From: a virus
Length of the DNA: 64,000 nucleotides
Virus record (IMG/VR): IMGVR_UViG_3300047548_001122
Location: 1-64,000 of that record
Reading direction: 5' to 3' (one strand)
A model generated the notes under the pieces. It was given only the letters and a program-made list of their open reading frames with translations. It did not search any database and was not told where the DNA came from. The translations under genes and the position numbers were made by a program. Shown here piece by piece: positions 9,307-35,602 of this stretch. How positions within the stretch are numbered: position 1 is the first letter of the stretch; every line of letters begins with the position of its first letter.

Positions 9307-9383
9307 GGGCCGGAAGCTTAAGTGGTATAAGCGTCCGACTCATAATCGGGTGACAGTGAGTTCGAATCTCACCCGGCCCACCA
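9307..9383 (+). tRNA. tRNA-Met(CAT) or Ile2
   Basis: Full cloverleaf: acceptor GGGCCGG/CCGGCCC, anticodon loop CTCATAA, T arm GTGAG-TTCGAAT-CTCAC and encoded CCA. One of three CAT tRNAs; which is elongator and which is lysidine-modified Ile cannot be told by eye. Confidence 0.95.
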
Positions 9384-9441
9384 TTAACAATATGACAACT
9401 AGTTATTGAGGTAATAATGTTGTATTTGCCCAACAAACCGC

Positions 9442-9470
9442 TTGACAAAAAATATTTTTTACTATATACT
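9442..9470 (+). promoter_or_regulatory. sigma70-like promoter with upstream palindrome
   Basis: TTGACA and TATACT, 17-nt spacer. GTTGTATTTGCCCAAC (9419-9434) lies just upstream, an element repeated before other promoters here. Drives the 41-aa gene and possibly the tRNAs. Confidence 0.75.
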
Positions 9471-9516
9471 ACACATATATTAAATTTTGCAGTAAAAGAT
9501 TACTAAATAAAGTACT

Positions 9517-9642
9517 ATGATGAAAAACACTTTTAACCCCGCAATATGTTTAGATAAGGAAATGCCATTTACATGGCAGGCCTCAGTACGCTCTATTAAT
9601 ACAAGCGGACTTGGCTACCACGATAAAGGGGTTTTTGTATAG
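9517..9642 (+). CDS. small hypothetical protein, 41 aa
   Basis: Lies between a promoter and a strong terminator, the only frame in that transcript. ATGs at 9517 and 9520. No motif; GGGGTTTTTGTAT at its end pairs with a complementary run upstream of the terminator. Confidence 0.45.
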   Translation: MMKNTFNPAICLDKEMPFTWQASVRSINTSGLGYHDKGVFV

Positions 9643-9671
9643 ATTATTGATGTAACAAATAAACCATACAA

Positions 9672-9704
9672 AAACCTCAAGATCGAAAGACTTGAGGTTT
9701 TTTT
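9672..9704 (+). terminator. rho-independent terminator
   Basis: Stem AAACCTCAAG/CTTGAGGTTT with a 9-nt loop followed by a run of T. Ends the short transcript from 9442-9470. The 115 nt between it and tRNA-Gln show no convincing gene. Confidence 0.85.
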
Positions 9705-9818
9705 GTTTTATACGCTAATCGCAACGAGGGTGATGCCAGCGTACAATAAAATGGCTAAAAGGGCGGCACTGAGGATGAAAATACCGGCGAGAACGGTTTA
9801 GTAAAATTCAGATTATGT

Positions 9819-9892
9819 TGGGGTGTGGTGAAGTGGTATCACAGCGGATTTTGATTCCGTTATTCTAAGTTCGATTCTTAGCACCCCTGCCA
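9819..9892 (+). tRNA. tRNA-Gln(TTG)
   Basis: Cloverleaf with anticodon loop TTTTGAT, T arm CTAAG-TTCGATT-CTTAG and CCA. Position 1 is T facing T at 72, an open first pair, in keeping with the weak first pair of glutamine tRNAs. Confidence 0.93.
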
Positions 9893-9967
9893 AATAGAAG
9901 AATACTCTTTGAGGTCTTGGTCGTTACCTGCGTAGCAAAAACGGCGGCAGAGTATTCTTCTATTTGG
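9890..9967 (+). repeat. 19-bp inverted repeat, tRNA spacer hairpin A
   Basis: The CCA of tRNA-Gln starts a 19-nt arm (9890-9908) that pairs perfectly with 9949-9967 around a 40-nt loop. It probably guides 3' processing of the tRNA precursor. Confidence 0.85.
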
Positions 9968-9974
9968 GTAAAAT

Positions 9975-10048
9975 CTCGGTGTGGTGTAATGGCAGCACAG
10001 CAGTCTCCAAAACTGTTAGTTGCGGTTCGAGTCCGTACACCGAGGCCA
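9975..10048 (+). tRNA. tRNA-Trp(CCA)
   Basis: Acceptor CTCGGTG/CACCGAG, anticodon loop CTCCAAA, T arm TGCGG-TTCGAGT-CCGTA, encoded CCA. Confidence 0.95.
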
Positions 10049-10153
10049 TGATTATGTTAACCAATAAAAGGAGAATAATCATGGGGCAATGTCAGTTTAT
10101 ATTTTAGTTGTACTGTTTTTGATTTACGTACATAAAAAAATTTAAGGAACTAT

Positions 10154-10396
10154 ATGAAAGACTATACGCCAAAAATTGCAAAAAAAGATTTAGAACATGG
10201 TGCTTATTATAGTGGCAGTTGCCGTAATGCAAACGAAGCACGATGGAATGCGGAGCGTAATGTTTTTGTACATTGGCGTACTAAGTTCAACAATACATTC
10301 TTAGAAGAAATTCGTCATCCAGAAGATGACCAGATGTTTGATGTATTTGTAGTTGAAGAAAAATTGGAAAATCCTACTAAGGAAATTCCCTTTTAA
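10154..10396 (+). CDS. hypothetical protein, 80 aa
   Basis: AAGGAA precedes the start; it lies between tRNA-Trp and tRNA-His. Soluble, with an acidic C-terminal half ending EEKLENPTKEIPF. No family recognised. The 105 nt before it contain only a doubtful 18-codon hydrophobic frame. Confidence 0.65.
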   Translation: MKDYTPKIAKKDLEHGAYYSGSCRNANEARWNAERNVFVHWRTKFNNTFLEEIRHPEDDQMFDVFVVEEKLENPTKEIPF

Positions 10397-10405
10397 GTAA
10401 TCGAT

Positions 10406-10481
10406 GGTGTCTATAGTGTAGTGGTCTGCATAGGGTGCTGTGAACGCCTTGGTATGAGTTCGATCCTCATTAGACACCCCA
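10406..10481 (+). tRNA. tRNA-His(GTG)
   Basis: Shows the histidine signature: an extra G at -1 (10406) opposite C73. Acceptor GTGTCTA/TAGACAC, anticodon loop CTGTGAA, T arm ATGAG-TTCGATC-CTCAT, CCA. Confidence 0.95.
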
Positions 10482-10486
10482 ATTTC

Positions 10487-10561
10487 GCAGCGGTAGCTTA
10501 AAGGTTAAAGCGTCCGTCTCTAAAACGGACAATGTGGGTTCGATTCCCACCCGCCGCACCA
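10487..10561 (+). tRNA. tRNA-Arg(TCT)
   Basis: Anticodon stem TCCGT/ACGGA with loop CTCTAAA, T arm GTGGG-TTCGATT-CCCAC, CCA. One A-C mismatch in the acceptor stem (position 3-70). A second Arg(TCT) lies at 16749. Confidence 0.93.
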
Positions 10562-10665
10562 TTTTTTATAGGAGAGTAACATGGAGAAACTTGTTGCATA
10601 GATTCGACCGCCATAAATTTCTGTTAGTCTTTTTTACTTTTTAAATTAACTAACAGGAGAATAAT

Positions 10666-11091
10666 ATGTGCATAGAATTAAAAATCAAATCTAAACATTT
10701 AAGTTTAGAATCGAAAGTAATTCGTTTTGAAGAACGTAAACTTCAAAAGCAAGTTAAGTGGTTGTATGAAAATGATCCTACAAAAGATTCCGATTCTTAT
10801 TCGGTGATGAGTAAGAGTGATTATTGGAAAACAGTTTGGAAATTAGGGTCATTGACTGACCACAGAAAACGTGTTGTTGGTACCGAAAACAGGGCTACAT
10901 TTTTAGCAAGAGCTTATATTGAAGGTGTTCCTTATAATAAAGTTGAATCTAAACGTAAGGATGAAAAACACTATGAGTTCAATTGTAAAGTTCTTCCTAG
11001 AGTGTTAGATATGGTTAGGAAATATCATCCTGTTTATGAAGTAAGAAAAAATATTACACTTGATGTATTGAAAGACTGGTGTAATATGTAA
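10666..11091 (+). CDS. hypothetical basic protein, 141 aa
   Basis: CAGGAG ribosome site. CTGTTAGT (10621-10628) and ACTAACAG (10649-10656) form a hairpin touching this site and may regulate translation. The protein is basic and helical; no motif recognised. Confidence 0.65.
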   Translation: MCIELKIKSKHLSLESKVIRFEERKLQKQVKWLYENDPTKDSDSYSVMSKSDYWKTVWKLGSLTDHRKRVVGTENRATFLARAYIEGVPYNKVESKRKDEKHYEFNCKVLPRVLDMVRKYHPVYEVRKNITLDVLKDWCNM

Positions 11092-11182
11092 GTGTCTCAC
11101 CCTTGTATACGGTGTATAATAGGACAAGTTGTATACAGTCTACAGACCCCGACTTCGGATCCTCGGTCGAAAAATGAGGATC

Positions 11183-11274
11183 CATATTGAAATACATTGT
11201 ATTCAGTTCGACTCTGATAGTTTCGTGTATTCCGGATATAACACGGAGCATAGCCAACAGTGTGTTTCAATATG
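11183..11274 (+). repeat. 18-bp inverted repeat, tRNA spacer hairpin B
   Basis: Arms 11183-11200 and 11257-11274 pair fully (two G-T pairs), with a 56-nt interior holding a T-loop-like hairpin (CAG-TTCGACT-CTG). The right arm ends at base 1 of tRNA-Val. Shares CATATTGAA/TTCAATATG with hairpins C and D. The ~90 nt upstream, back to 11092, hold two GGATCC copies but no gene. Confidence 0.8.
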
Positions 11275-11348
11275 CATCGTTAGCTCAGCGGTAGAGCAAT
11301 GCCCTTACAAGGCGGAGGTCCGCGGTTCGAACCCGTGACGATGTACCA
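11274..11348 (+). tRNA. tRNA-Val(TAC)
   Basis: Acceptor GCATCGT/ACGATGT (G1-T72 wobble), anticodon loop CTTACAA, T arm CGCGG-TTCGAAC-CCGTG, CCA. Confidence 0.93.
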
Positions 11349-11354
11349 GTTTAA

Positions 11355-11428
11355 CTCGGTATGGTGAAATGGTATCATGCGTGCTTTGGGAGCATGTGGC
11401 GGAAGTTCGATTCTTCCTACCGAGACCA
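11355..11428 (+). tRNA. tRNA-Pro(TGG)
   Basis: Acceptor CTCGGTA/TACCGAG, anticodon loop TTTGGGA, T arm GGAAG-TTCGATT-CTTCC, CCA. Confidence 0.95.
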
Positions 11429-11444
11429 ATTAAAGGAGAGTGAT

Positions 11445-11609
11445 ATGTCTAGGACTTTTCGTAAAGAACGTAAGACGACCAAAAAAGTAAGAGATGGTCA
11501 TAGACAATTTGTTTCTGTTAGTTGTGAACACCATGGAGGTTGTCCATGGTGTGAAAGAAATCGTTTGATTAATCAAAAAAAACTTAATCAAACAAAGTTT
11601 TATGAATAA
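11445..11609 (+). CDS. small basic Cys/His protein, 54 aa
   Basis: AAGGAGAG before the ATG at 11445. Very basic N-terminus, then SCEHHGGCPWCERNR, enough Cys/His for one zinc site. Lies inside the tRNA array, so an RNA-binding role is tempting but unproven. The stop is 1 nt before tRNA-Ala. Confidence 0.6.
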   Translation: MSRTFRKERKTTKKVRDGHRQFVSVSCEHHGGCPWCERNRLINQKKLNQTKFYE

Positions 11610-11610
11610 T

Positions 11611-11690
11611 GGGGATAGGGACTGCTTGGGGTGGTCGCCTCACTTGCAATGAGGATATTCAGTTCGGTTCAAATCCGAATATCTCCACCA
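11611..11690 (+). tRNA. tRNA-Ala(TGC)
   Basis: Acceptor GGGGATA/TATCTCC, anticodon arm CCTCA-CTTGCAA-TGAGG, T arm TTCGG-TTCAAAT-CCGAA, CCA. Confidence 0.94.
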
Positions 11691-11699
11691 TTATACTAT

Positions 11700-11773
11700 G
11701 CTCTCATAGTTAAGTGGTATAACGCATCCTTGGTAAGGATGTATTACAAGTTCGATTCTTGTTGAGAGCACCA
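11700..11773 (+). tRNA. tRNA-Thr(GGT)
   Basis: Acceptor GCTCTCA/TGAGAGC, anticodon arm CATCC-TTGGTAA-GGATG, T arm ACAAG-TTCGATT-CTTGT, CCA. Confidence 0.95.
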
Positions 11774-11774
11774 T

Positions 11775-11850
11775 GCAACTTTAGCTGATGTGGTCATAGC
11801 GGCGGCCTGAAGAGCCGTTGAACCAGGTTCGATTCCTGGAGGTTGCACCA
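11775..11850 (+). tRNA. tRNA-Phe(GAA)
   Basis: Acceptor GCAACTT/AGGTTGC, anticodon loop CTGAAGA, T arm CCAGG-TTCGATT-CCTGG, CCA. One base separates it from tRNA-Thr. Confidence 0.94.
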
Positions 11851-11852
11851 TT

Positions 11853-11926
11853 CCTTCCGTAGCTCAAAGGTAGAGCAATCGATTGATAATCGATAGACAG
11901 TGGATCGTTACCATTCGGAAGGACCA
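11853..11926 (+). tRNA. tRNA-Ile(GAT)
   Basis: Acceptor CCTTCCG/CGGAAGG, anticodon arm ATCGA-TTGATAA-TCGAT, CCA. The T loop reads ATCGTTA instead of TTCRANN, a variant shared with tRNA-Asp here. Confidence 0.92.
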
Positions 11927-11933
11927 AGTTTTT

Positions 11934-12010
11934 GCCCCGGTGACGGAACTGGTATACGTGTTGGTCTTAGAAGCCAAATTTTAGGAGTTCGACTCTCCTC
12001 TGGGGCACCA
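11934..12010 (+). tRNA. tRNA-Leu(TAG), short variable loop
   Basis: Leucine-type D loop, anticodon arm TTGGT-CTTAGAA-GCCAA, T arm AGGAG-TTCGACT-CTCCT, CCA. The variable region is about 5 nt instead of the long class II arm normal for leucine. Confidence 0.9.
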
Positions 12011-12011
12011 T

Positions 12012-12087
12012 CGGTCTTTAGTAAAATGGATGATTACGGCGGGCTACGGACCCGCAGGTGGGAGTTCGATTCTCTCAGGACCGGCCA
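12012..12087 (+). tRNA. tRNA-Arg(ACG)
   Basis: Acceptor CGGTCTT/AGGACCG, anticodon arm GCGGG-CTACGGA-CCCGC, T arm GGGAG-TTCGATT-CTCTC, CCA. ACG would need adenosine-to-inosine editing by the host enzyme. Confidence 0.93.
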
Positions 12088-12184
12088 TATTGAAACACAT
12101 TTTGTATGCTAAACGGCACAGCCGCGGAACTTGAACTCCGTAGATGTGAGGTTCGAGTCCTCACCGAAGTGTGTTTCAATATGG
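12085..12184 (+). repeat. 20-bp hairpin C enclosing a cloverleaf-like RNA
   Basis: Arms 12085-12104 and 12165-12184 pair along all 20 positions. The interior has a D-arm-like hairpin, an anticodon-like arm with an 8-nt loop (GCGGA/TCCGT) and a textbook T arm (GTGAGG-TTCGAGT-CCTCAC). There is no CCA. The arms overlap the CCA of tRNA-Arg and the first two bases of tRNA-Ser. Confidence 0.8.
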
Positions 12185-12272
12185 AAGTGTGGCAGAGCCC
12201 GGTTTAATGCACCTGACTTGAAATCAGACGAACAGAAATGTTCCGTGAGTTCGAATCTCACCGCTTCCGCCA
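12183..12272 (+). tRNA. tRNA-Ser(TGA)
   Basis: Class II tRNA: acceptor GGAAGTG/CGCTTCC, anticodon loop CTTGAAA, variable arm GAACAGAAATGTTC, T arm GTGAG-TTCGAAT-CTCAC, CCA. Confidence 0.95.
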
Positions 12273-12354
12273 TATTGTGTTGCAACTAATCTGAGGGAGT
12301 CCACGTTAGCCTCAGTTAAAATGACAAAAATCGGGGCCAATTAAAGGAAATTAA

Positions 12355-12516
12355 ATGTTAATGTTAGTTTTAAAAATATTTTTATATTGGATTGGATTAG
12401 GTATTTTTATTTCGTCATTGATGTTTAGTTGTTTAATGTTTGCAAAAGTTTGTGAAACTACGGTGAATTGGCTGAGTGGCTTAAGGCAGCGGTTTGCTAA
12501 ACCGTCGAAGGTTTAA
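12355..12516 (+). CDS. candidate membrane protein overlapping tRNA-Ser(GCT), 53 aa
   Basis: AAAGGAAA upstream and one strong hydrophobic span (residues 2-30). Its last 55 nt run through the following tRNA gene, so either the C-terminus is incidental or the two genes share sequence. Confidence 0.45.
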   Translation: MLMLVLKIFLYWIGLGIFISSLMFSCLMFAKVCETTVNWLSGLRQRFAKPSKV

Positions 12517-12551
12517 ATCTTCCATTGGTTCGAATCCAATATTCACCGCCA
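12462..12551 (+). tRNA. tRNA-Ser(GCT)
   Basis: Class II: acceptor GGTGAAT/ATTCACC, anticodon loop TTGCTAA, variable arm GAAGGTTTAAATCTTC, T arm ATTGG-TTCGAAT-CCAAT, CCA. Confidence 0.95.
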
Positions 12552-12567
12552 TAATTTAGGAGTAAAT

Positions 12568-13131
12568 ATGCCAGCAAATTTTTTAGTTAGTGATACACAT
12601 TTCGGGCACGCTGGTGTATGTAAATTCCTGCGTGATGATGGAACAAAACTTAGACCATGGGATAATCCAGATGAGATGGATGAAGAAATGGTTAAGCGTT
12701 GGAATGAAACAGTAAGGCCTAACGATAAAGTTTACCATCTTGGTGATGTTGTGATTAATCGCAAAGCACTTAAAATACTTTCAAGACTGAATGGTGATAA
12801 AGTGCTGATTAAAGGTAATCACGATATCTTTAAACTTGGAGATTATACGGAATATTTTCGTGACATTCGTAGTTATCATGTAATGAATGGAATGATTCTT
12901 AGTCATATTCCTGTACATGAAGAAAGTCTAGCACGATTTGGAACGAATATTCATGGACATCTTCATTACAACAGAGTGAAGAAAGATGGAGTAATTGATC
13001 CGAGGTATTGGTGTGCTTGTGTTGAGCATACTGATTATCGGCCAATTCTTTTTGAAGATGTTATTAAAAGAATTAAGGAACAAGGTGGGACTGTAGGGTT
13101 TAAAAACGGAAACGGTCCCACTGTAGATTAA
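12568..13131 (+). CDS. calcineurin-like metallophosphoesterase, 187 aa
   Basis: All family metal ligands are visible: D9-x-H11, G59-D60, GNHD at 83-86, SH at 112-113 and GHLH at 130-133. The enzyme hydrolyses phosphoester bonds with a two-metal centre; small phage versions are thought to act on nucleotides or RNA ends, but the substrate is unknown. AGGAG site at good spacing. It lies inside the tRNA array and stops 1 nt before tRNA-Cys, so a role in RNA end processing is possible (inference). Confidence 0.88.
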   Translation: MPANFLVSDTHFGHAGVCKFLRDDGTKLRPWDNPDEMDEEMVKRWNETVRPNDKVYHLGDVVINRKALKILSRLNGDKVLIKGNHDIFKLGDYTEYFRDIRSYHVMNGMILSHIPVHEESLARFGTNIHGHLHYNRVKKDGVIDPRYWCACVEHTDYRPILFEDVIKRIKEQGGTVGFKNGNGPTVD

Positions 13132-13132
13132 T

Positions 13133-13210
13133 GGTAAGGTGGCTGAGTGGTCCAAAGCGACAGTCTGCAAAACTGTAAAACCATCGGTTCAAATCCGATC
13201 CTTACCTCCA
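13133..13210 (+). tRNA. tRNA-Cys(GCA)
   Basis: Acceptor GGTAAGG/CCTTACC, anticodon arm ACAGT-CTGCAAA-ACTGT, T arm ATCGG-TTCAAAT-CCGAT, CCA. Confidence 0.95.
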
Positions 13211-13268
13211 TTAACAATTTGACAACAAATGTTATCAGGAAGATAACGTTGTATTTTGGCAACAGTGC

Positions 13269-13296
13269 TTGACAATTGTACTGGTTCCTGTATAAT
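13269..13296 (+). promoter_or_regulatory. early promoter with shared leader
   Basis: TTGACA and TATAAT, 16-nt spacer, TG-extended; leader TGTTGAGTGATTG at 13303. The palindromic element GTTG...CAAC (13248-13263) precedes it. No protein gene follows, so it serves the RNA island. Confidence 0.85.
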
Positions 13297-13358
13297 AGAC
13301 TTTGTTGAGTGATTGATGCAGTACGGAAAGAAACGATGTTGTATAAAAACAACACCGC

Positions 13359-13387
13359 TTGACAAAACGATTAAGTGGTGTTATAAT
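13359..13387 (+). promoter_or_regulatory. sigma70-like promoter for the tRNA/ncRNA region
   Basis: TTGACA and TATAAT, 17-nt spacer, preceded by GTTGTATAAAAACAAC (13338-13353). Second of two tandem promoters. Confidence 0.85.
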
Positions 13388-13542
13388 GTTGTTTCAGTAG
13401 TTGAGTTTCTTTAACAAATTGCGAATTAAAACAGGTGTGAGCGACCTGTCTCTGAATAGAGTTTGACAAGGTTTTGGTGTGGCAAAGACTTCGGCACCAT
13501 GTAACAGTCTGTACCTTGTTAGTTCTAAATTTTTAGTTTTAT
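13388..13542 (+). other. structured leader/spacer before tRNA-Glu
   Basis: No gene. Two hairpins are clear: ACAGGT/ACCTGT (13431-13449) and ACAAGGT/ACCTTGT (13466-13519), the second enclosing further pairing. Likely a processed spacer RNA. Confidence 0.5.
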
Positions 13543-13617
13543 GTTCCGTGGGACGGCTGGTGTGGTCAACTGCCTTTCAAGCAGTGCAGATGGGATCGAA
13601 ACCCATACGGAACTCCA
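13543..13617 (+). tRNA. tRNA-Glu(TTC)
   Basis: Acceptor GTTCCGT/ACGGAAC, anticodon arm ACTGC-CTTTCAA-GCAGT, T arm ATGGG-ATCGAAA-CCCAT (T54 replaced by A), CCA. Confidence 0.94.
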
Positions 13618-13719
13618 TATTGAAGTGTATTCTGAAACCTGTAGAGTCGTACAGCGGAATGCATAGTCAGGGTATAAGCTGGTATCTGGGAGATACGACC
13701 TGAGTATACTTCAATATGG
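13615..13719 (+). repeat. 18-bp inverted repeat, tRNA spacer hairpin D
   Basis: Arm 13615-13632 begins with the CCA of tRNA-Glu and pairs throughout with 13702-13719. The inside contains GTATC-TGGGA-GATAC. Shares CCATATTGAA/TTCAATATGG with hairpins B and C. Confidence 0.82.
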
Positions 13720-13841
13720 TGAAGTAACAAGGTTAGGATTTGGTCATAATTGTGGCTGTGCGCTGAAATAACCTATAATGCGAAACCCGAAAGGGTATCC
13801 TTGTGGCAAGCAGAGAGTTGGCGTGGCGACCAATCACCATA
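13715..13841 (+). ncRNA. structured spacer RNA
   Basis: TATGGTGA pairs with TCACCATA at its ends, GATTTGGTC with GACCAATC just inside, and AACCC-GAAA-GGGT forms a GNRA-type hairpin. The first arm overlaps the right arm of hairpin D, so the two folds may be alternatives. No known family recognised. Confidence 0.5.
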
Positions 13842-13897
13842 ATCATTTTTTTTATAAGGAGACCTGTCATGGATAGTGACAAGAGTGATAAGATTAT

Positions 13898-13973
13898 GGG
13901 GCTATAGTCAAACGGTTAAGACAGCGGACTTTTAATCCGTCAGGTCAGGGTTCGAATCCCTGTGGCCCCACCA
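13898..13973 (+). tRNA. tRNA-Lys(TTT)
   Basis: Acceptor GGGGCTA/TGGCCCC, anticodon arm GCGGA-CTTTTAA-TCCGT, T arm CAGGG-TTCGAAT-CCCTG, CCA. Confidence 0.95.
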
Positions 13974-14052
13974 ATCTGAAAGTACACTGTGTGTCAGACT
14001 GCTTCGGCGAATTGATAAACATTAAGTTGAGATAGTGTACTTCCAAATTGGT
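13970..14052 (+). repeat. 19-nt inverted repeat, tRNA spacer hairpin E
   Basis: The end of tRNA-Lys (ACCA) opens an arm, 13970-13988, that pairs with 14034-14052 at 17 of 19 positions. The right arm covers the first bases of tRNA-Asp. Same design as hairpins A-D with a different sequence. Confidence 0.75.
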
Positions 14053-14124
14053 TCCAAAGTGTTCATGGACGCACATATGCCTGTCACGCATAAAGAAGGG
14101 GATCGTTACCCCTTGGAACCGCCA
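14050..14124 (+). tRNA. tRNA-Asp(GTC)
   Basis: Acceptor GGTTCCA/TGGAACC, anticodon arm TATGC-CTGTCAC-GCATA, CCA. T loop ATCGTTA, as in tRNA-Ile(GAT). Confidence 0.93.
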
Positions 14125-14234
14125 AGATGCACACCTTCGCTTTGAGGTGTGGCAGGATAGCCTCTCCTTCCTAGGATGGATGCTTCTCAGACTGCAACTA
14201 GAGTTCTCGCAAAAGAACATAGCAGAGTTTCAAT
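14125..14234 (+). other. structured tRNA spacer
   Basis: No gene. Hairpins CACACCT/AGGTGTG and GTTCT-CGCAAA-AGAAC are visible. Role unknown. Confidence 0.45.
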
Positions 14235-14313
14235 TCCGCAGAACCCGAGCAAGGTGCATGGGCGTGACTGTTAATCACTGGCTAGTAGAGTTCGATTCTC
14301 TAATGCGGAGCCA
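14235..14313 (+). tRNA. tRNA-Asn(GTT)
   Basis: Acceptor TCCGCAG/ATGCGGA with a mismatch at pair 7, anticodon loop CTGTTAA, T arm TAGAG-TTCGATT-CTCTA, CCA. Slightly long D loop. Confidence 0.9.
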
Positions 14314-14703
14314 AAATTCCGGTTACTACTTTCCTGAAAGTAGCGTGTGGCGACGAGAATTGTCCCGGTGGCTATGGCACCGTTAGCGCATACGTAAGCA
14401 GACAACATAGCAACGTGGACACTACGTAGCAAACCGCAATTAGTGTTCGGACAGGGAAACAACTCCAGCTTAGGGGCGACCGTGGAAAGCGTGGCCTAAG
14501 CAAATTTAATTGTGTTATTATGGAAAATTCCAGTGATCGCTGGATAGTGCTCCCCAAAATGATTTGATGTCCGGATTATTCAAGTCTATAGGGTGTGACT
14601 GACGAAAAACCTATGACGATAGGAACAATAAGAGCAGTCCTACAAAATGCAAACCCTAGGCGGTGAATCCTAGGTATAACGTGATAACACAATTAAGTTT
14701 TTT
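14314..14703 (+). ncRNA. 390-nt structured spacer, includes hairpin F
   Basis: No protein gene. Several strong hairpins: CTACTTT/AAAGTAG, CGGTG-GCTATGG-CACCG, GCTTAGG/CCTAAGC, CCAG-TGAT-CGCTGG. A 19-bp stem joins 14502-14520 with 14682-14700, three bases before tRNA-Tyr. It may hold one or more unknown RNAs. Confidence 0.5.
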
Positions 14704-14796
14704 GGGTGTCTTGATGCTATGGCGTGTGCATCCCCGGACTGTAAATCCGGTCCCTTGTGGTAAACATTCGCGGTTCGAATCCGTGGACACCCACCA
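14704..14796 (+). tRNA. tRNA-Tyr(GTA)
   Basis: Class II tRNA: acceptor GGGTGTC/GACACCC, anticodon arm CCGGA-CTGTAAA-TCCGG, long variable arm, T arm CGCGG-TTCGAAT-CCGTG, CCA. Confidence 0.94.
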
Positions 14797-14802
14797 AGTT
14801 TT

Positions 14803-14884
14803 GCAGGATAAGGAAAAAGCATATGCCCCTATGGAGCATGTTATACTAGTTGCTATTCAGGTTCGATTCCTGAATCCTGCACCA
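14803..14884 (+). tRNA. tRNA-like element, anticodon arm not recognisable
   Basis: Acceptor GCAGGAT/ATCCTGC, T arm TCAGG-TTCGATT-CCTGA and CCA are perfect. The centre does not give a 5-bp stem with a 7-nt loop; instead AGCA/TGCT closes a 12-nt loop. Either a decayed tRNA or a tRNA-mimic. Confidence 0.5.
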
Positions 14885-15137
14885 GAATCCTCCTTACCGT
14901 TCAGTGGAGTAACGGCGGTACTTGCAGTCGAAAGTGTGCAAGCGTCATTGTGTTGCGAAAAACACTCGGCAGAACAGAAATCCTAGGATAATGCCGCAGA
15001 GACCCGCTCTAATGGGTGCCTTATGAAAAGACTGTTCCTGTGGTCGGCCGAGCCACAGTGTGAATAATCGGATGGACAGTGTAACTACTCAGTCTAGGGC
15101 TTATGGGAATAAGTAGCTAGACATCACACATAAACGC
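14885..15137 (+). other. structured spacer without gene
   Basis: About 250 nt with hairpins such as CAGTC-GAAA-GTG and AGTCTAG...CTAGAC (near 15090-15122), the latter close to the next promoter and possibly a terminator without a T run. No coding frame is convincing. Confidence 0.4.
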
Positions 15138-15166
15138 TTGACAAGAGTTTTTATGTGTGGTATAAT
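15138..15166 (+). promoter_or_regulatory. sigma70-like promoter for the large ncRNA
   Basis: TTGACA and TATAAT, 17-nt spacer, directly upstream of ~1 kb with no protein gene. Confidence 0.85.
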
Positions 15167-15172
15167 AGATGT

Positions 15173-16151
15173 TTAATTGGGAGTATAGTCTCATTAGAAT
15201 AAGTGGCGTGAGCCACCCAAAGCAGAAGTGTCCTACACACCTGCGCCAGTGATGGTTCATCTATACAAGCCTGCTCACTAGGGCGACCTAGCGATCACTG
15301 ATAAGACCGGTGGTTGTAACAATGAAGCTGGTGTAGTGGAAAGAATTGTATGCTCAAGCGCCGCAAGGTAACGCAAGTATACAGAGAGTAACGGGTGGTG
15401 CTGACCTCACTACAAAACCAATCAGTTAGTTGGTATGAGAAAGGGTAGTGCATTTGTCCAAGGTGTTGCAACCAAGGGCTTATGTGCAGTATTAATGGTT
15501 TATGGAACTGCCGTGAGGCGTTACATGAATCGTGAAATACTACTGAGTAGCCGGCAGGCAAAAGGTACGTGGTGTGTTGTATGATGTGGATTAATAGTTC
15601 ATGTCGCAACAGGAGCAGCACATCATAGTAGGTTCGATATAGCGTAATGGTAACGCGATTGCCTTTAGAGCAATTGACTGTTGGTTCGAGTCCAACTATC
15701 AAATAAAAAAAGCAAAGACTGCTCCGGTTAGTAGTGAAAGGTATCTAATACTTGGCTCGCAAGAGAATCAAGTCTGACGTAGCTCGCAAGGTGAAATCAG
15801 TTTATATCGGAAGATTCGTAAGGTGTTAGCGCACTTGAATGGCTCGCAAGGTCAACGGGTAAGAAGGTGTAGAGTAACTATTAACGACAAGTCTAATGCC
15901 TGACTTTCAAAACGGCGATACTGGTGATAGACGATGATACCGCAAGGGTTGTCGTGGATGTCGTGAGAAGTCTGACCCGCAAGGTCTTATATAATGCACG
16001 AAGTGTCACTATGGAAGGTGTAATCTCAGCCGACCACTTACTAAAGCACATTATTCTTTCAAGAGGTTCTTAGTCGTACCTGTAGTTTGTTTTAGTGTGC
16101 TTCAGTAATAAAATTCGCGTGTGAGGCGAGAGGAGAGTTCGTACTCTCCTC
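15173..16151 (+). ncRNA. large ornate structured RNA, GOLLD-like candidate
   Basis: Nearly 1 kb without a coding gene, starting at a strong promoter and ending in a hairpin. It is packed with GNRA-capped stems: GTGGC-GTGA-GCCAC (15203-15216), CTAGG-GCGA-CCTAG (15278-15291), GCC-GTGA-GGC (15510-15519) and six or more GCAA loops, four between 15750 and 15945. A complete tRNA-shaped element lies in the middle. Large size, phage and tRNA-array context and an embedded tRNA match what is known of GOLLD RNAs; I cannot align it to the family model. Ends are estimates. Confidence 0.6.
15633..15704 (+). tRNA. candidate suppressor tRNA(TTA), no CCA
   Basis: Perfect D arm (GCG/CGC), anticodon arm ATTGC-CTTTAGA-GCAAT and T arm GTTGG-TTCGAGT-CCAAC. 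The anticodon TTA (15665-15667) would read UAA. The acceptor TTCGATA/TATCAAA has one mismatch and no CCA is encoded. It may be a working ochre suppressor or a structural tRNA domain of the surrounding RNA. Confidence 0.6.
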
Positions 16152-16160
16152 AAACTTTTT
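16130..16160 (+). terminator. terminator-like hairpin
   Basis: GAGGAGAG-TTCGTA-CTCTCCTC, a perfect 8-bp stem, followed by AAACTTTTT. The displaced T run makes it a weak terminator or an RNA-end hairpin just before tRNA-Met. Confidence 0.55.
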
Positions 16161-16164
16161 CAAT

Positions 16165-16242
16165 AGCGGGGTAGAGAAGAGGTCGTTTTCGCCGGTCTCA
16201 TAAGCCGGAAATCGTGTGGTTCGAATCCCACCCCCGCTACCA
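16165..16242 (+). tRNA. tRNA-Met/Ile2(CAT)
   Basis: Acceptor AGCGGGG/CCCCGCT, anticodon loop CTCATAA. The T arm fits GTG-GG/CCCAC only with one bulged T, an irregularity worth noting. CCA encoded. Confidence 0.85.
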
Positions 16243-16248
16243 ATATAT

Positions 16249-16323
16249 GGTAGTGTAGCATAACGGTAGTGCGCCACCTTCATACGGTGTTCGGTGTAAG
16301 TTCGATTCTTACCACTACTACCA
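16249..16323 (+). tRNA. tRNA-Met(CAT)
   Basis: Acceptor GGTAGTG/CACTACT (G-T first pair), D stem GCA/TGC, anticodon loop TTCATAC, T arm GTAAG-TTCGATT-CTTAC, CCA. Third CAT anticodon in the window. Confidence 0.9.
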
Positions 16324-16342
16324 GCATAAGTAGTGTATAATA

Positions 16343-16416
16343 GCCCTTTTAGTTAAATGGTATAACGCTTGACTTGTAATCATGAATTGGTGGTTCGATT
16401 CCATCAAGGGGCACCA
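16343..16416 (+). tRNA. tRNA-Thr(TGT)
   Basis: Acceptor GCCCTTT/AAGGGGC, anticodon loop CTTGTAA, T arm GGTGG-TTCGATT-CCATC, CCA. One mismatch in the anticodon stem. Confidence 0.92.
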
Positions 16417-16432
16417 ATAACAAGGAAGTAAA

Positions 16433-16600
16433 ATGACAGACGGTGGTAAAGGAAGTAAGCCAAGACCATTTTCGGTTACACAAGATAAATTTTCTGATAA
16501 TTGGGATAAAATATTTAAGAATGAATATCAGGATGAATTGAGTACCGAAGATGCTGTGCTAGATGCTTTTGAAGATAAGAAAGAAACAAAGCGGGATTAG
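16433..16600 (+). CDS. acidic small protein overlapping tRNA-Gly, 55 aa
   Basis: AAGGAAG before the ATG. Charged, soluble protein (FSVTQDKFSDNWDKIFKNEY). Its last 10 nt are the first bases of tRNA-Gly(TCC). No family recognised. Confidence 0.55.
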   Translation: MTDGGKGSKPRPFSVTQDKFSDNWDKIFKNEYQDELSTEDAVLDAFEDKKETKRD

Positions 16601-16664
16601 TTTAATGGTAAAACTACAGATTTCCAATCTGTTGTTATCAGTTCGATTCTGATATCCCGCTCCA
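16591..16664 (+). tRNA. tRNA-Gly(TCC)
   Basis: Acceptor GCGGGAT/ATCCCGC, anticodon arm ACAGA-TTTCCAA-TCTGT, T arm ATCAG-TTCGATT-CTGAT, CCA. Confidence 0.95.
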
Positions 16665-16670
16665 AAATTT

Positions 16671-16744
16671 GCGGAATTAGTTTAATGGTAGAACGAAACC
16701 TTGCCAAGGTCTAGACACCAGTTCGATTCTGGTATTCCGCTCCA
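16671..16744 (+). tRNA. tRNA-Gly(GCC)
   Basis: Acceptor GCGGAAT/ATTCCGC, anticodon loop TTGCCAA, T arm ACCAG-TTCGATT-CTGGT, CCA. Its halves resemble tRNA-Gly(TCC) just upstream, suggesting duplication. Confidence 0.94.
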
Positions 16745-16748
16745 AATC

Positions 16749-16823
16749 CTGGCTGTCGTATAACGGATAATACAAGAGACTTCTAATCTTTAAATCGGGG
16801 TTCGATTCCCTGCAGCCGGACCA
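16749..16823 (+). tRNA. tRNA-Arg(TCT)
   Basis: Acceptor CTGGCTG/CAGCCGG, anticodon arm AGAGA-CTTCTAA-TCTTT, T arm CGGGG-TTCGATT-CCCTG, CCA. Second Arg(TCT), differing in sequence from the one at 10487. Confidence 0.93.
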
Positions 16824-16826
16824 AAT

Positions 16827-16918
16827 GCCCCTGTAGTTTAACGGAAAAACAGCGGATTTATATCCCGTGTGCAACAGATAATTGGCCAATGTGGGTTCGA
16901 CTCCCGCCGGGGGCACCA
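16827..16918 (+). tRNA. tRNA with TAT anticodon (Ile?), long variable region
   Basis: Acceptor GCCCCTG/CGGGGGC, T arm GTGGG-TTCGACT-CCCGC, CCA. The best anticodon loop is TTTATAT (anticodon TAT, codon AUA). A variable region of over 20 nt is unusual for isoleucine, so the identity is uncertain. Confidence 0.65.
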
Positions 16919-17421: not shown

Positions 17422-17451
17422 GACACTCCAGATAATCTTTCAGGAGTGTCT
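17421..17451 (+). promoter_or_regulatory. hairpin sequestering the HNH ribosome site
   Basis: AGACACTCC (17421-17429) pairs with GGAGTGTCT (17443-17451); GGAG is the ribosome site of the ATG at 17452. Read-through transcripts would be silenced, while transcripts from the late promoter lose the 5' arm. This is the known T4 arrangement for I-TevI and similar genes. Confidence 0.78.
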
Positions 17452-17904
17452 ATGAAAAAGATAAGTGCAACGGATCAAGAAATAATTGAAGTATCCAATA
17501 CTTCACAATCAGCATCACAAGCAGCACAAATTTTAGGTATTCAATATGGTACATATCGAGTTCATGCTTTACGATTGGGAGTATTTAAACCCAACCAGCG
17601 TGGATTAGGTAGACCAAAACCTAAAAAAGAAGGTAACGGAAAAATTTCACTGAAGGATATCTTTGAAGGAAAACATCCATCATATCAATCTAATAAATTG
17701 AGAAAAAGATTGTTCAGTGAAGGTTATAAAGAGAAAAGGTGTGAGATATGTGGAGTAACTGAATGGAACGGGAAAGAATTATCGTTTCAGCTTGAACATA
17801 TCGACGGAAACTGTTATAATCATACTTTCGATAACTTAATGATTATTTGTCCGAACTGTCATTCACAGACGGACACATATTGTGGTAGAAATAAAACGAA
17901 ATAA
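17452..17904 (+). CDS. HNH homing endonuclease, 150 aa
   Basis: N-terminal helix-turn-helix-like DNA-binding part (TDQEIIEVSNTSQSASQAAQ...) then an HNH nuclease: CEICG, LEHIDGN and ICPNCH with the His/Asn catalytic spacing and two CxxC zinc pairs. I use the ATG at 17452 rather than an upstream GTG because GGAG sits 5 nt before it. The stop is 1 nt before a tRNA-Leu interrupted by a group I intron, so the enzyme probably cuts the intronless tRNA allele and spreads the intron. Expression looks restricted to late infection. Confidence 0.88.
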   Translation: MKKISATDQEIIEVSNTSQSASQAAQILGIQYGTYRVHALRLGVFKPNQRGLGRPKPKKEGNGKISLKDIFEGKHPSYQSNKLRKRLFSEGYKEKRCEICGVTEWNGKELSFQLEHIDGNCYNHTFDNLMIICPNCHSQTDTYCGRNKTK

Positions 17905-17905
17905 T

Positions 17906-18202
17906 GCCTCGATGGTGAAATAGGTAGACACAAGGGACTTGAGATTAAAATTTGAGTGCCCTATTGGAAACGATAGGAGTAGAACCCGTCAAATTCGGTG
18001 AAAGCTTTAAAATGCTAATACCGAGCGAAGCTTAGATAGAAATATCTTTGAACGTGTAGAGACTAGACGGCGGGCATCTAAAGTGAAAGCTATGATGAAG
18101 GTATAGTCCAGACCACAAACAGGAGACTGGTAGTGAAAACTATAGTGGTAAGAAAATCCCTCGCCGCAAGGCGTGCCGGTTCGATTCCGGCTCGAGGTAC
18201 CA
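17906..18202 (+). tRNA. tRNA-Leu(TAA) split by a group I intron
   Basis: Exon 1 is 17906-17940, exon 2 is 18153-18202. Joined, they give acceptor GCCTCGA/TCGAGGT, anticodon arm AGGGA-CTTAAAA-TCCCT with anticodon TAA, a class II variable arm (CGCCGCAAGGCG), T arm GCCGG-TTCGATT-CCGGC and CCA. The intron lies between T34 and A35, the same place as in cyanobacterial and plastid tRNA-Leu(UAA). Confidence 0.9.
17941..18152 (+). other. group I self-splicing intron, 212 nt
   Basis: The 5' exon GGGACTT pairs with GAGTGCCC inside the intron, leaving the hallmark T-G pair at the splice site (P1). P7 is formed by GACTA (18061-18065, in GAGACTAGACGG) and TAGTC (18104-18108). The intron ends in G at 18152. 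It has no internal gene; the HNH gene stands just outside. Confidence 0.88.
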
Positions 18203-35044: not shown

Positions 35045-35212
35045 ATGTTTTACGCTCTTTTCGTAACATTTGTTTTGAACGGTAATCCTCCTGTAGAACA
35101 GAGATGGAAAGCATATGAAACGTTTGATGAATGTTGGGAAGCAGCTACAATAATAGTAAGAGGTAGAGATAATTTTACCGCAAGGTGTGTTTTAGTTGAA
35201 AGTAAAGAATAG
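35045..35212 (+). CDS. hypothetical protein, 55 aa
   Basis: Hydrophobic start (MFYALFVTFVLN) then a Trp/Thr-rich helix and two Cys. No strong ribosome site. It ends one base before the tmRNA acceptor segment, so tmRNA may be co-transcribed with it. Confidence 0.55.
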   Translation: MFYALFVTFVLNGNPPVEQRWKAYETFDECWEAATIIVRGRDNFTARCVLVESKE

Positions 35213-35278
35213 AATTGTTGTAATCCCTTCAAAGTGAAGGCATTCTGGACGTGGGTTCGACTCCCACCATCTCCACCA
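35213..35278 (+). ncRNA. ssrA: permuted tmRNA, acceptor piece (3' part of mature RNA)
   Basis: Contains hairpin CCTTC-AAAGT-GAAGG, then CTGGAC, T arm GTGGG-TTCGACT-CCCAC, acceptor strand CATCTCC, discriminator A and CCA (35276-35278). CATCTCC pairs with GGGGATG at 35369-35375 and CATTCTG (35241-35247) pairs with CAGGGTG (35388-35394) as helix P2. In ordinary tmRNA genes this piece lies downstream of the tag; here it lies upstream. The 5' end is approximate. Confidence 0.9.
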
Positions 35279-35368
35279 AAAGCGCAGATAGACGCTATGT
35301 TGGCTTCAGATCGCAACTAGCGAACATACGCGAGACAGGTTCCCACTACGAACTTCTGTGCTTTTGAT
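35279..35368 (+). other. tmRNA intervening segment (removed)
   Basis: Ninety nt linking the CCA end to the 5' end of the coding piece. Its ends pair over 12 bp (35277-35288 with 35355-35366), starting in the CCA, the same design as the tRNA spacers. Removal would leave a two-piece tmRNA. Confidence 0.8.
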
Positions 35369-35555
35369 GGGGATGACCTGGTTTCGACAGGGTGAGATAA
35401 TGGAGAAGGCAACACGGTAGGCGATGACCGTAAATCAAGCAAAAATAGTAACTGCAAACGATGAAAGTTACGCTCTAGCAGCTTAAGCTCTAGATGAGGT
35501 TTCGCAAGGTGTGCCTTATAATCAAAACACCTTGCACCAAATCACTTAGAGTAGA
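35369..35555 (+). ncRNA. ssrA: permuted tmRNA, coding piece with tag reading frame
   Basis: Starts GGGGATGACCTGG-TTTCGACAGG, the tmRNA D-loop analogue. The resume codon GCA is at 35439 and the tag reads AKIVTANDESYALAA up to TAA (35484-35486), ending in the protease signal ALAA. A 9-bp hairpin GCAAGGTGT/ACACCTTGC follows. No T arm occurs downstream, so the gene is truly permuted. It rescues stalled ribosomes and marks the product for proteolysis. Confidence 0.93.
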
Positions 35556-35572
35556 TTAATGATTTTCTCTAC

Positions 35573-35602
35573 TTGACTTTTGATTACATTATGATATATA
35601 AT
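35573..35602 (+). promoter_or_regulatory. sigma70-like promoter of pqqA
   Basis: TTGACT and TATAAT, 18-nt spacer. The leader contains CATGGC-TATTG-GCCATG and a strong ribosome site (TAGGAG) before pqqA. Confidence 0.8.

Follow-up and report, generated by a model that had tools for sequence, protein, structure and literature searches.

An IC3-type group I intron in a phage tRNA-Leu(UAA) gene, with a free-standing HNH endonuclease gene at the same locus

The tRNA-Leu(UAA) gene at positions 17906-18202 of the window, a stretch formed by the first 64 kb of a virus record with 214,237 bases, harbors, between U34 and A35, a group I intron of 212 nt (17941-18152), identified as such by computation. 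In appearance it is a typical IC3 tRNA intron, and it belongs to a family that has probably been passed among phages, driven most likely by HNH endonucleases cleaving intronless tRNA-Leu(UAA) genes. As deduced from sequence comparisons, free-standing HNHs encoded beside or inside tRNA-Leu(UAA) would cleave the intronless gene, repair from an intron-bearing phage would copy the tRNA together with its intron, and protection of the HNH carrier would then come from the intron or from an altered site (pair G31-C39), a scheme that follows the logic named collaborative homing. In the phage considered here, the intron-bearing tRNA seems to have taken the place of another tRNA-Leu, one without an intron, next to an HNH that was already there.

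All features of the locus lie on the plus strand. The 5' exon (17906-17940) extends to U34 and the 3' exon (18153-18202) includes an encoded CCA; joined, they form an 85-nt tRNA-Leu(UAA) with a regular fold. A first-pass annotation had described an insert of 212 nt between anticodon bases 34 and 35, a splice-site T-G pair in P1, a P7 composed of GACTA and TAGTC, a last base G (G18152) and a regular spliced tRNA; all of this held, the U-G pair being that of the 5' splice site and the insert measuring exactly 212 nt. Scoring with a group I model, as it had proposed, returned RF00028 at 17931-18133 (65.7 bits, E 2e-14; gathering score 50), the only group I intron match of Rfam in the whole record. 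The 212 nt contained no ORF, so the insert is not an intron-encoded HEG element.

A manual P1-P9 structure was scored on an alignment of 30 tRNA-Leu introns from phages and bacteria. Paired cells amounted to 93.7 %, against 75.2 % in shuffles and 28.6-40.2 % in a slid register; 36 of 54 pairs displayed changes on both sides and the covariation score was 0.476 (shuffles, 0.153). The fold z-score of the insert was -3.7, and with the Rfam and covariation scores this places it well outside what chance would produce. P1 (17937-17957) pairs exon ACUU (17937-17940) with guide GAGU (17954-17957) and comprises the splice-site U-G wobble; its pairs UG, UA and CG were unvarying in the 30 sequences. P2 (17960-17977) is a hairpin of 7 bp with a GAAA loop, in which 7/7 pairs were changed on both sides. 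The 5' strand of P3 (17985-17990) is partnered by 18066-18067 and 18071-18074, with four covarying pairs and 100 % of cells paired. P4 (17995-17999/18020-18024) and a short P5 (18004-18005/18014-18015) occupy 17995-18024 without P5abc, and are followed by P6 and the P6a hairpin with its GAAA loop (18026-18054). The guanosine-binding helix P7 (5' strand 18061-18065, partner 18104-18108; 99 % of cells paired) crosses P3 and thereby forms the group I pseudoknot. P8 (18075-18097) is a hairpin with three covarying pairs, while P9 (18113-18148) includes P9a (GAGA loop) and P9b (GAAA loop). Strong covariation was also encountered in P2, P6a, P8 and P9b, and omega G, the terminal guanosine (18152), occupies an invariant alignment column.

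The insert thus displays the P3-P8 core, the P3/P7 pseudoknot, the U-G wobble in P1 and the terminal G of group I introns. The first-pass annotation had made its claim dependent in part on such a core; it is present, pseudoknot included, and is supported by covariation. The subclass, which had been left for assignment, is IC3-type, as judged from structure, alignment and tree: the intron is compact, located in a tRNA anticodon loop, has a short P5 without P5abc and is homologous to tRNA introns. Along its entire extent it could be aligned with the tRNA-Leu introns of cyanobacteria and proteobacteria, and a single tree of the core brings it together with introns of tRNA-Ile and tRNA-Arg.

As indicated by the conserved structure, the intron should be self-splicing. 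After transcription, guanosine would attack at the U-G pair, exon ligation would follow at omega G, and excision would restore the only UAA-anticodon tRNA of the phage. The split gene was called by ARAGORN with the intron option and was missed without it, and no other tRNA with a UAA anticodon was called in the record. Since UUA accounts for 43.6 % of Leu codons in the long ORFs of the record and this tRNA is the only one called with that anticodon, splicing would matter for its use. A decayed intron in a dead tRNA gene is a very unlikely alternative: the core elements, U-G pair and omega G are all intact, the exons are regular and the relatives display long-term compensatory change.

Introns at this site appear to be common among phages. 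A scan of viral contigs with a 17-base P7 core motif returned at least 119 stretches, and a locus search that required the splice site with a paired anticodon stem and a T-loop identified at least 76 viral loci with an insert at tRNA-Leu U34|A35, including the window and Agrobacterium phage Atu_ph07. These 76 loci represented at least 64 different upstream contexts, and some were located on contigs larger than 300 kb. The 735-kb phage LR756501 carries a similar insert at the same tRNA-Leu site, and Lak-B1 displays an IC3-like insert of 348 nt at U34|A35 (L123:3006-3420); in the Lak paper, baboon Lak phages are listed with one intron, in tRNA-Tyr (PMC6784885). Five phage tRNA-Leu introns (L007, L011, L024, L056 and L100) were 679-809 nt long and enclosed an HNH gene, which was antisense in L007 and L100. 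Phage tRNA-Leu(UAA) introns readily go unnoticed, since they are passed over by standard tRNA calls, and Rfam alone undercounts them, since its gathering score misses the introns of L077 and L116, which are 91 % identical to that of the window.

In cells, U34|A35 introns were encountered in cyanobacteria, in dozens of Pseudomonadota and in some Acidobacteriota. The site was therefore correctly described as that of the cyanobacterial intron (the analysed set had 12 rows from cyanobacteria), but it is not specific, Pseudomonadota and Acidobacteriota sharing it. In trees of the intron core, the window intron was placed within phage tRNA-Leu introns (a three-row clade supported at 100/94 and an 11-row clade at 91/89), while the cyanobacterial introns formed their own clade (100/100) on a long branch, with the window outside. 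A tree that held the phage clade of the window together with cyanobacteria was not rejected (AU p=0.54), nor was one that joined the two main phage clades (p=0.54), and the alignment of 229 columns cannot settle this deep order. The suggested comparison with bacterial tRNA introns thus yielded a grouping with phage introns, and spoke neither for nor against closeness to the cyanobacterial lineage.

We consider it very unlikely that a cyanobacterium or a cyanophage was the direct donor of the tRNA with its intron, the phage then being a viral carrier of the old intron known from cyanobacteria and plastids. Such an origin would agree with the identical insertion site and ribozyme type and with the AU value just given, but besides the nesting among phage introns, the nearest baseplate relatives of the phage belong to Methylophilales and Pelagibacter phages, its tmRNA is of betaproteobacterial type and many Pseudomonadota use U34|A35 too. 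The earlier proposal of a phage vehicle for the spread of the intron remains plausible between phages, while no supporting evidence was found for cyanobacteria or plastids. Plasmid matches were merely weak bacterial homologues.

The gene immediately upstream (17446-17904) encodes a free-standing HNH endonuclease of 152 aa (PHROG 10822, E 1.9e-30) with a CxxC zinc-knuckle and an EH..N..H motif. One base separates its stop codon from the tRNA, and it lies outside both intron and tRNA. It is the single copy of its family in the 214-kb record; relatives are present in many phages, and none was found in Pfam or PDB. A free-standing nuclease gene adjoining an intron-bearing gene is the arrangement of collaborative homing. 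The homing nuclease that had been attributed to the phage intron does adjoin the tRNA gene, but it is not encoded within the intron and its closest kin lie beside intronless tRNA-Leu genes.

Proximity was counted with a family profile within 200 bp of tRNA-Leu, whether upstream, downstream or intronic. HNHs were found near 32/76 intron-bearing viral tRNA-Leu genes and near none of 120 comparable intronless viral genes with a near-matching exon pattern; none of the 67 cellular intron-bearing tRNA-Leu genes had a family member within the same distance. HNH density was 5.4 hits per 100 kb in the intron-bearing viral set against 0.46 in the intronless one. These contrasts, together with the several HNH lineages that adjoin the gene upstream, downstream or intronically and with a change of tRNA exons between unchanged flanks (see below), argue against an IC3 intron that was vertically inherited or passively acquired and is now immobile, the HNH being an unrelated free-standing element of the tRNA array. 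This explanation, which we consider unlikely, would account for the lack of an ORF in the intron, for the majority of intron-bearing phage loci without a nearby family HNH (44/76, some of which have short flanks), for the disagreement of window HNH and intron trees and for the occurrence of HNH relatives in many phages.

Mobility driven by HNHs, the preferred interpretation, is also suggested by the alleles of anticodon-stem pair 31-39. All intron-bearing viral genes displayed A31-U39, a pair that P1 pairing may need too. The intronless genes next to close relatives of the window HNH (L363/L364 and L365) displayed G-C. In samples of intronless alleles taken regardless of HNH and with matched D-loop pattern, an HNH was located within 200 bp of 1/295 A31-U39 genes and of 8/52 G31-C39 genes (Fisher p 1e-6); several of these eight cases were duplicates, and an earlier count with duplicates collapsed gave five against zero (p ~3e-4), both p values being optimistic because the loci are not phylogenetically independent. 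The single exception (L623), an intact HNH adjoining an intronless A31-U39 tRNA-Leu, breaks a strict rule by which HNHs would never lie beside that allele. HNH counts like these (32/76, 1/295 and 8/52) would be expected of a nuclease that cleaves ordinary intronless genes and is blocked by an intron or a changed site, and the sequence pattern fits such protection. At one locus (L511, ~2110-2300), a truncated C-terminal HNH remnant was fused to an intronless G31-C39 tRNA-Leu, and in three others (L468, L519 and L521) the HNH reading frame reached or entered the tRNA gene.

A sister phage (L363/L364) displays the same order as the window, i.e. tRNA array, RNase H-like gene, HNH, tRNA-Leu, AhpC and CMD, and the 100 nt that flank its tRNA at each end share 90-91 % identity with the window. 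Its tRNA-Leu is intronless and only 75 % identical to the window exons, which are themselves 90-91 % identical to intron-bearing phage tRNAs (L077, L006 and L023) with unrelated flanks. In this syntenic sister the HNH is the same but the tRNA-Leu next to it is another one and lacks an intron, so that the intron-bearing tRNA of the window looks swapped in: tRNA and intron seem to have been inserted together beside the resident HNH. The HNH tree, in which the window HNH grouped with those of intronless G31-C39 loci (98/98), speaks for this direction without proving it.

Introns close to that of the window (L116, L006 and L023) adjoin another HNH clade (100/99). Joint acquisition of HNH and intron was thus not encountered, the two window trees being incongruent, and for this reason the window HNH need not have moved the window intron. 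The simple reading of it as the intron's own partner was rejected, its relatives adjoining intronless tRNA-Leu. HNH and intron appear to be partners of convenience and not one inherited unit, which fits the turnover of HEGs at intron loci published as an alternative to joint homing (PMC10448857).

A broader proposal is more tentative. The anticodon arm of tRNA-Leu(UAA) could be a contested homing site, targeted by several HNH lineages, from which phages would escape through an IC3 intron or through G31-C39; exchange of tRNA and intron between phages would then provide a viral route that could have seeded bacteria. We hold this to be possible, somewhat short of an even chance. For the debate on vertical descent versus lateral spread, the ancient intron of tRNA-Leu is a textbook example, and a phage reservoir with nucleases beside the same tRNA offers a concrete and testable route of spread.

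Compared with known systems, the window intron shares the U34|A35 site, the ribozyme core, the small size and the absence of a nuclease ORF with cyanobacterial and plastid tRNA-Leu(UAA) IC3 introns. It differs in that the cyanobacterial introns form a separate clade, while that of the window is phage-borne, belongs to an all-phage clade and has an HNH in its locus. Proteobacterial tRNA IC3 introns (Azoarcus tRNA-Ile type; alphaproteobacterial and other tRNA-Leu) display the P7 motif GTGTAGAGACTAGACGG, are near 200-240 nt long and, for the Leu ones, occupy the same site, but reside in cellular genomes. Lak megaphages likewise carry introns in tRNA genes, with the IC3-like one of Lak-B1 at the same site; these were called "enigmatic" in 2019 and the first of their kind to the authors' knowledge, with tRNA-Tyr and tRNA-Thr named, and the accessible part of that account, unlike the present one, gives no intron class, site rule or nuclease link (PMC6784885). 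In cyanophage S-PM2, collaborative homing was described for F-CphI and the psbA intron, where a free-standing nuclease gene also adjoins the intron-bearing gene and the intron stops cutting of the carrier's own copy (PMC6083498). The present case differs in having a tRNA as host gene, a nuclease that is an HNH of another family, a cleavage that is predicted, and intronless carriers whose site is altered.

A review of bacterial group I introns from 2014 reported that known phage introns were all in protein genes despite the many phage tRNAs (PMC3984707). In the main texts that describe Atu_ph07 and huge phages the word "intron" does not occur, and phages are unmentioned in the text of a group I intron database paper. 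As far as the literature shows, the association of a phage IC3 tRNA intron with free-standing HNHs and protected alleles is new; earlier descriptions may exist in subscription literature.

The record displayed further RNA features. An array of 28 intronless tRNA genes extends over 9307-16918, and the other 150 kb of the record yielded no further tRNAs. Within the array, a GOLLD RNA (15569-16032; RF02032, 205.7 bits) embeds a tRNA (15632-15705) with anticodon UUA, which is ochre-suppressor-like. Another tRNA (10487-10561) has anticodon CUA, is labelled 'Pyl' by ARAGORN and is amber-suppressor-like; TAG still terminates 10/104 ORFs of at least 200 aa in the record. The tmRNA (35176-35577; RF01850, 160.6 bits; RF04321, 156.3 bits) is circularly permuted, two-piece and of betaproteobacterial type, with the tag ANDESYALAA.
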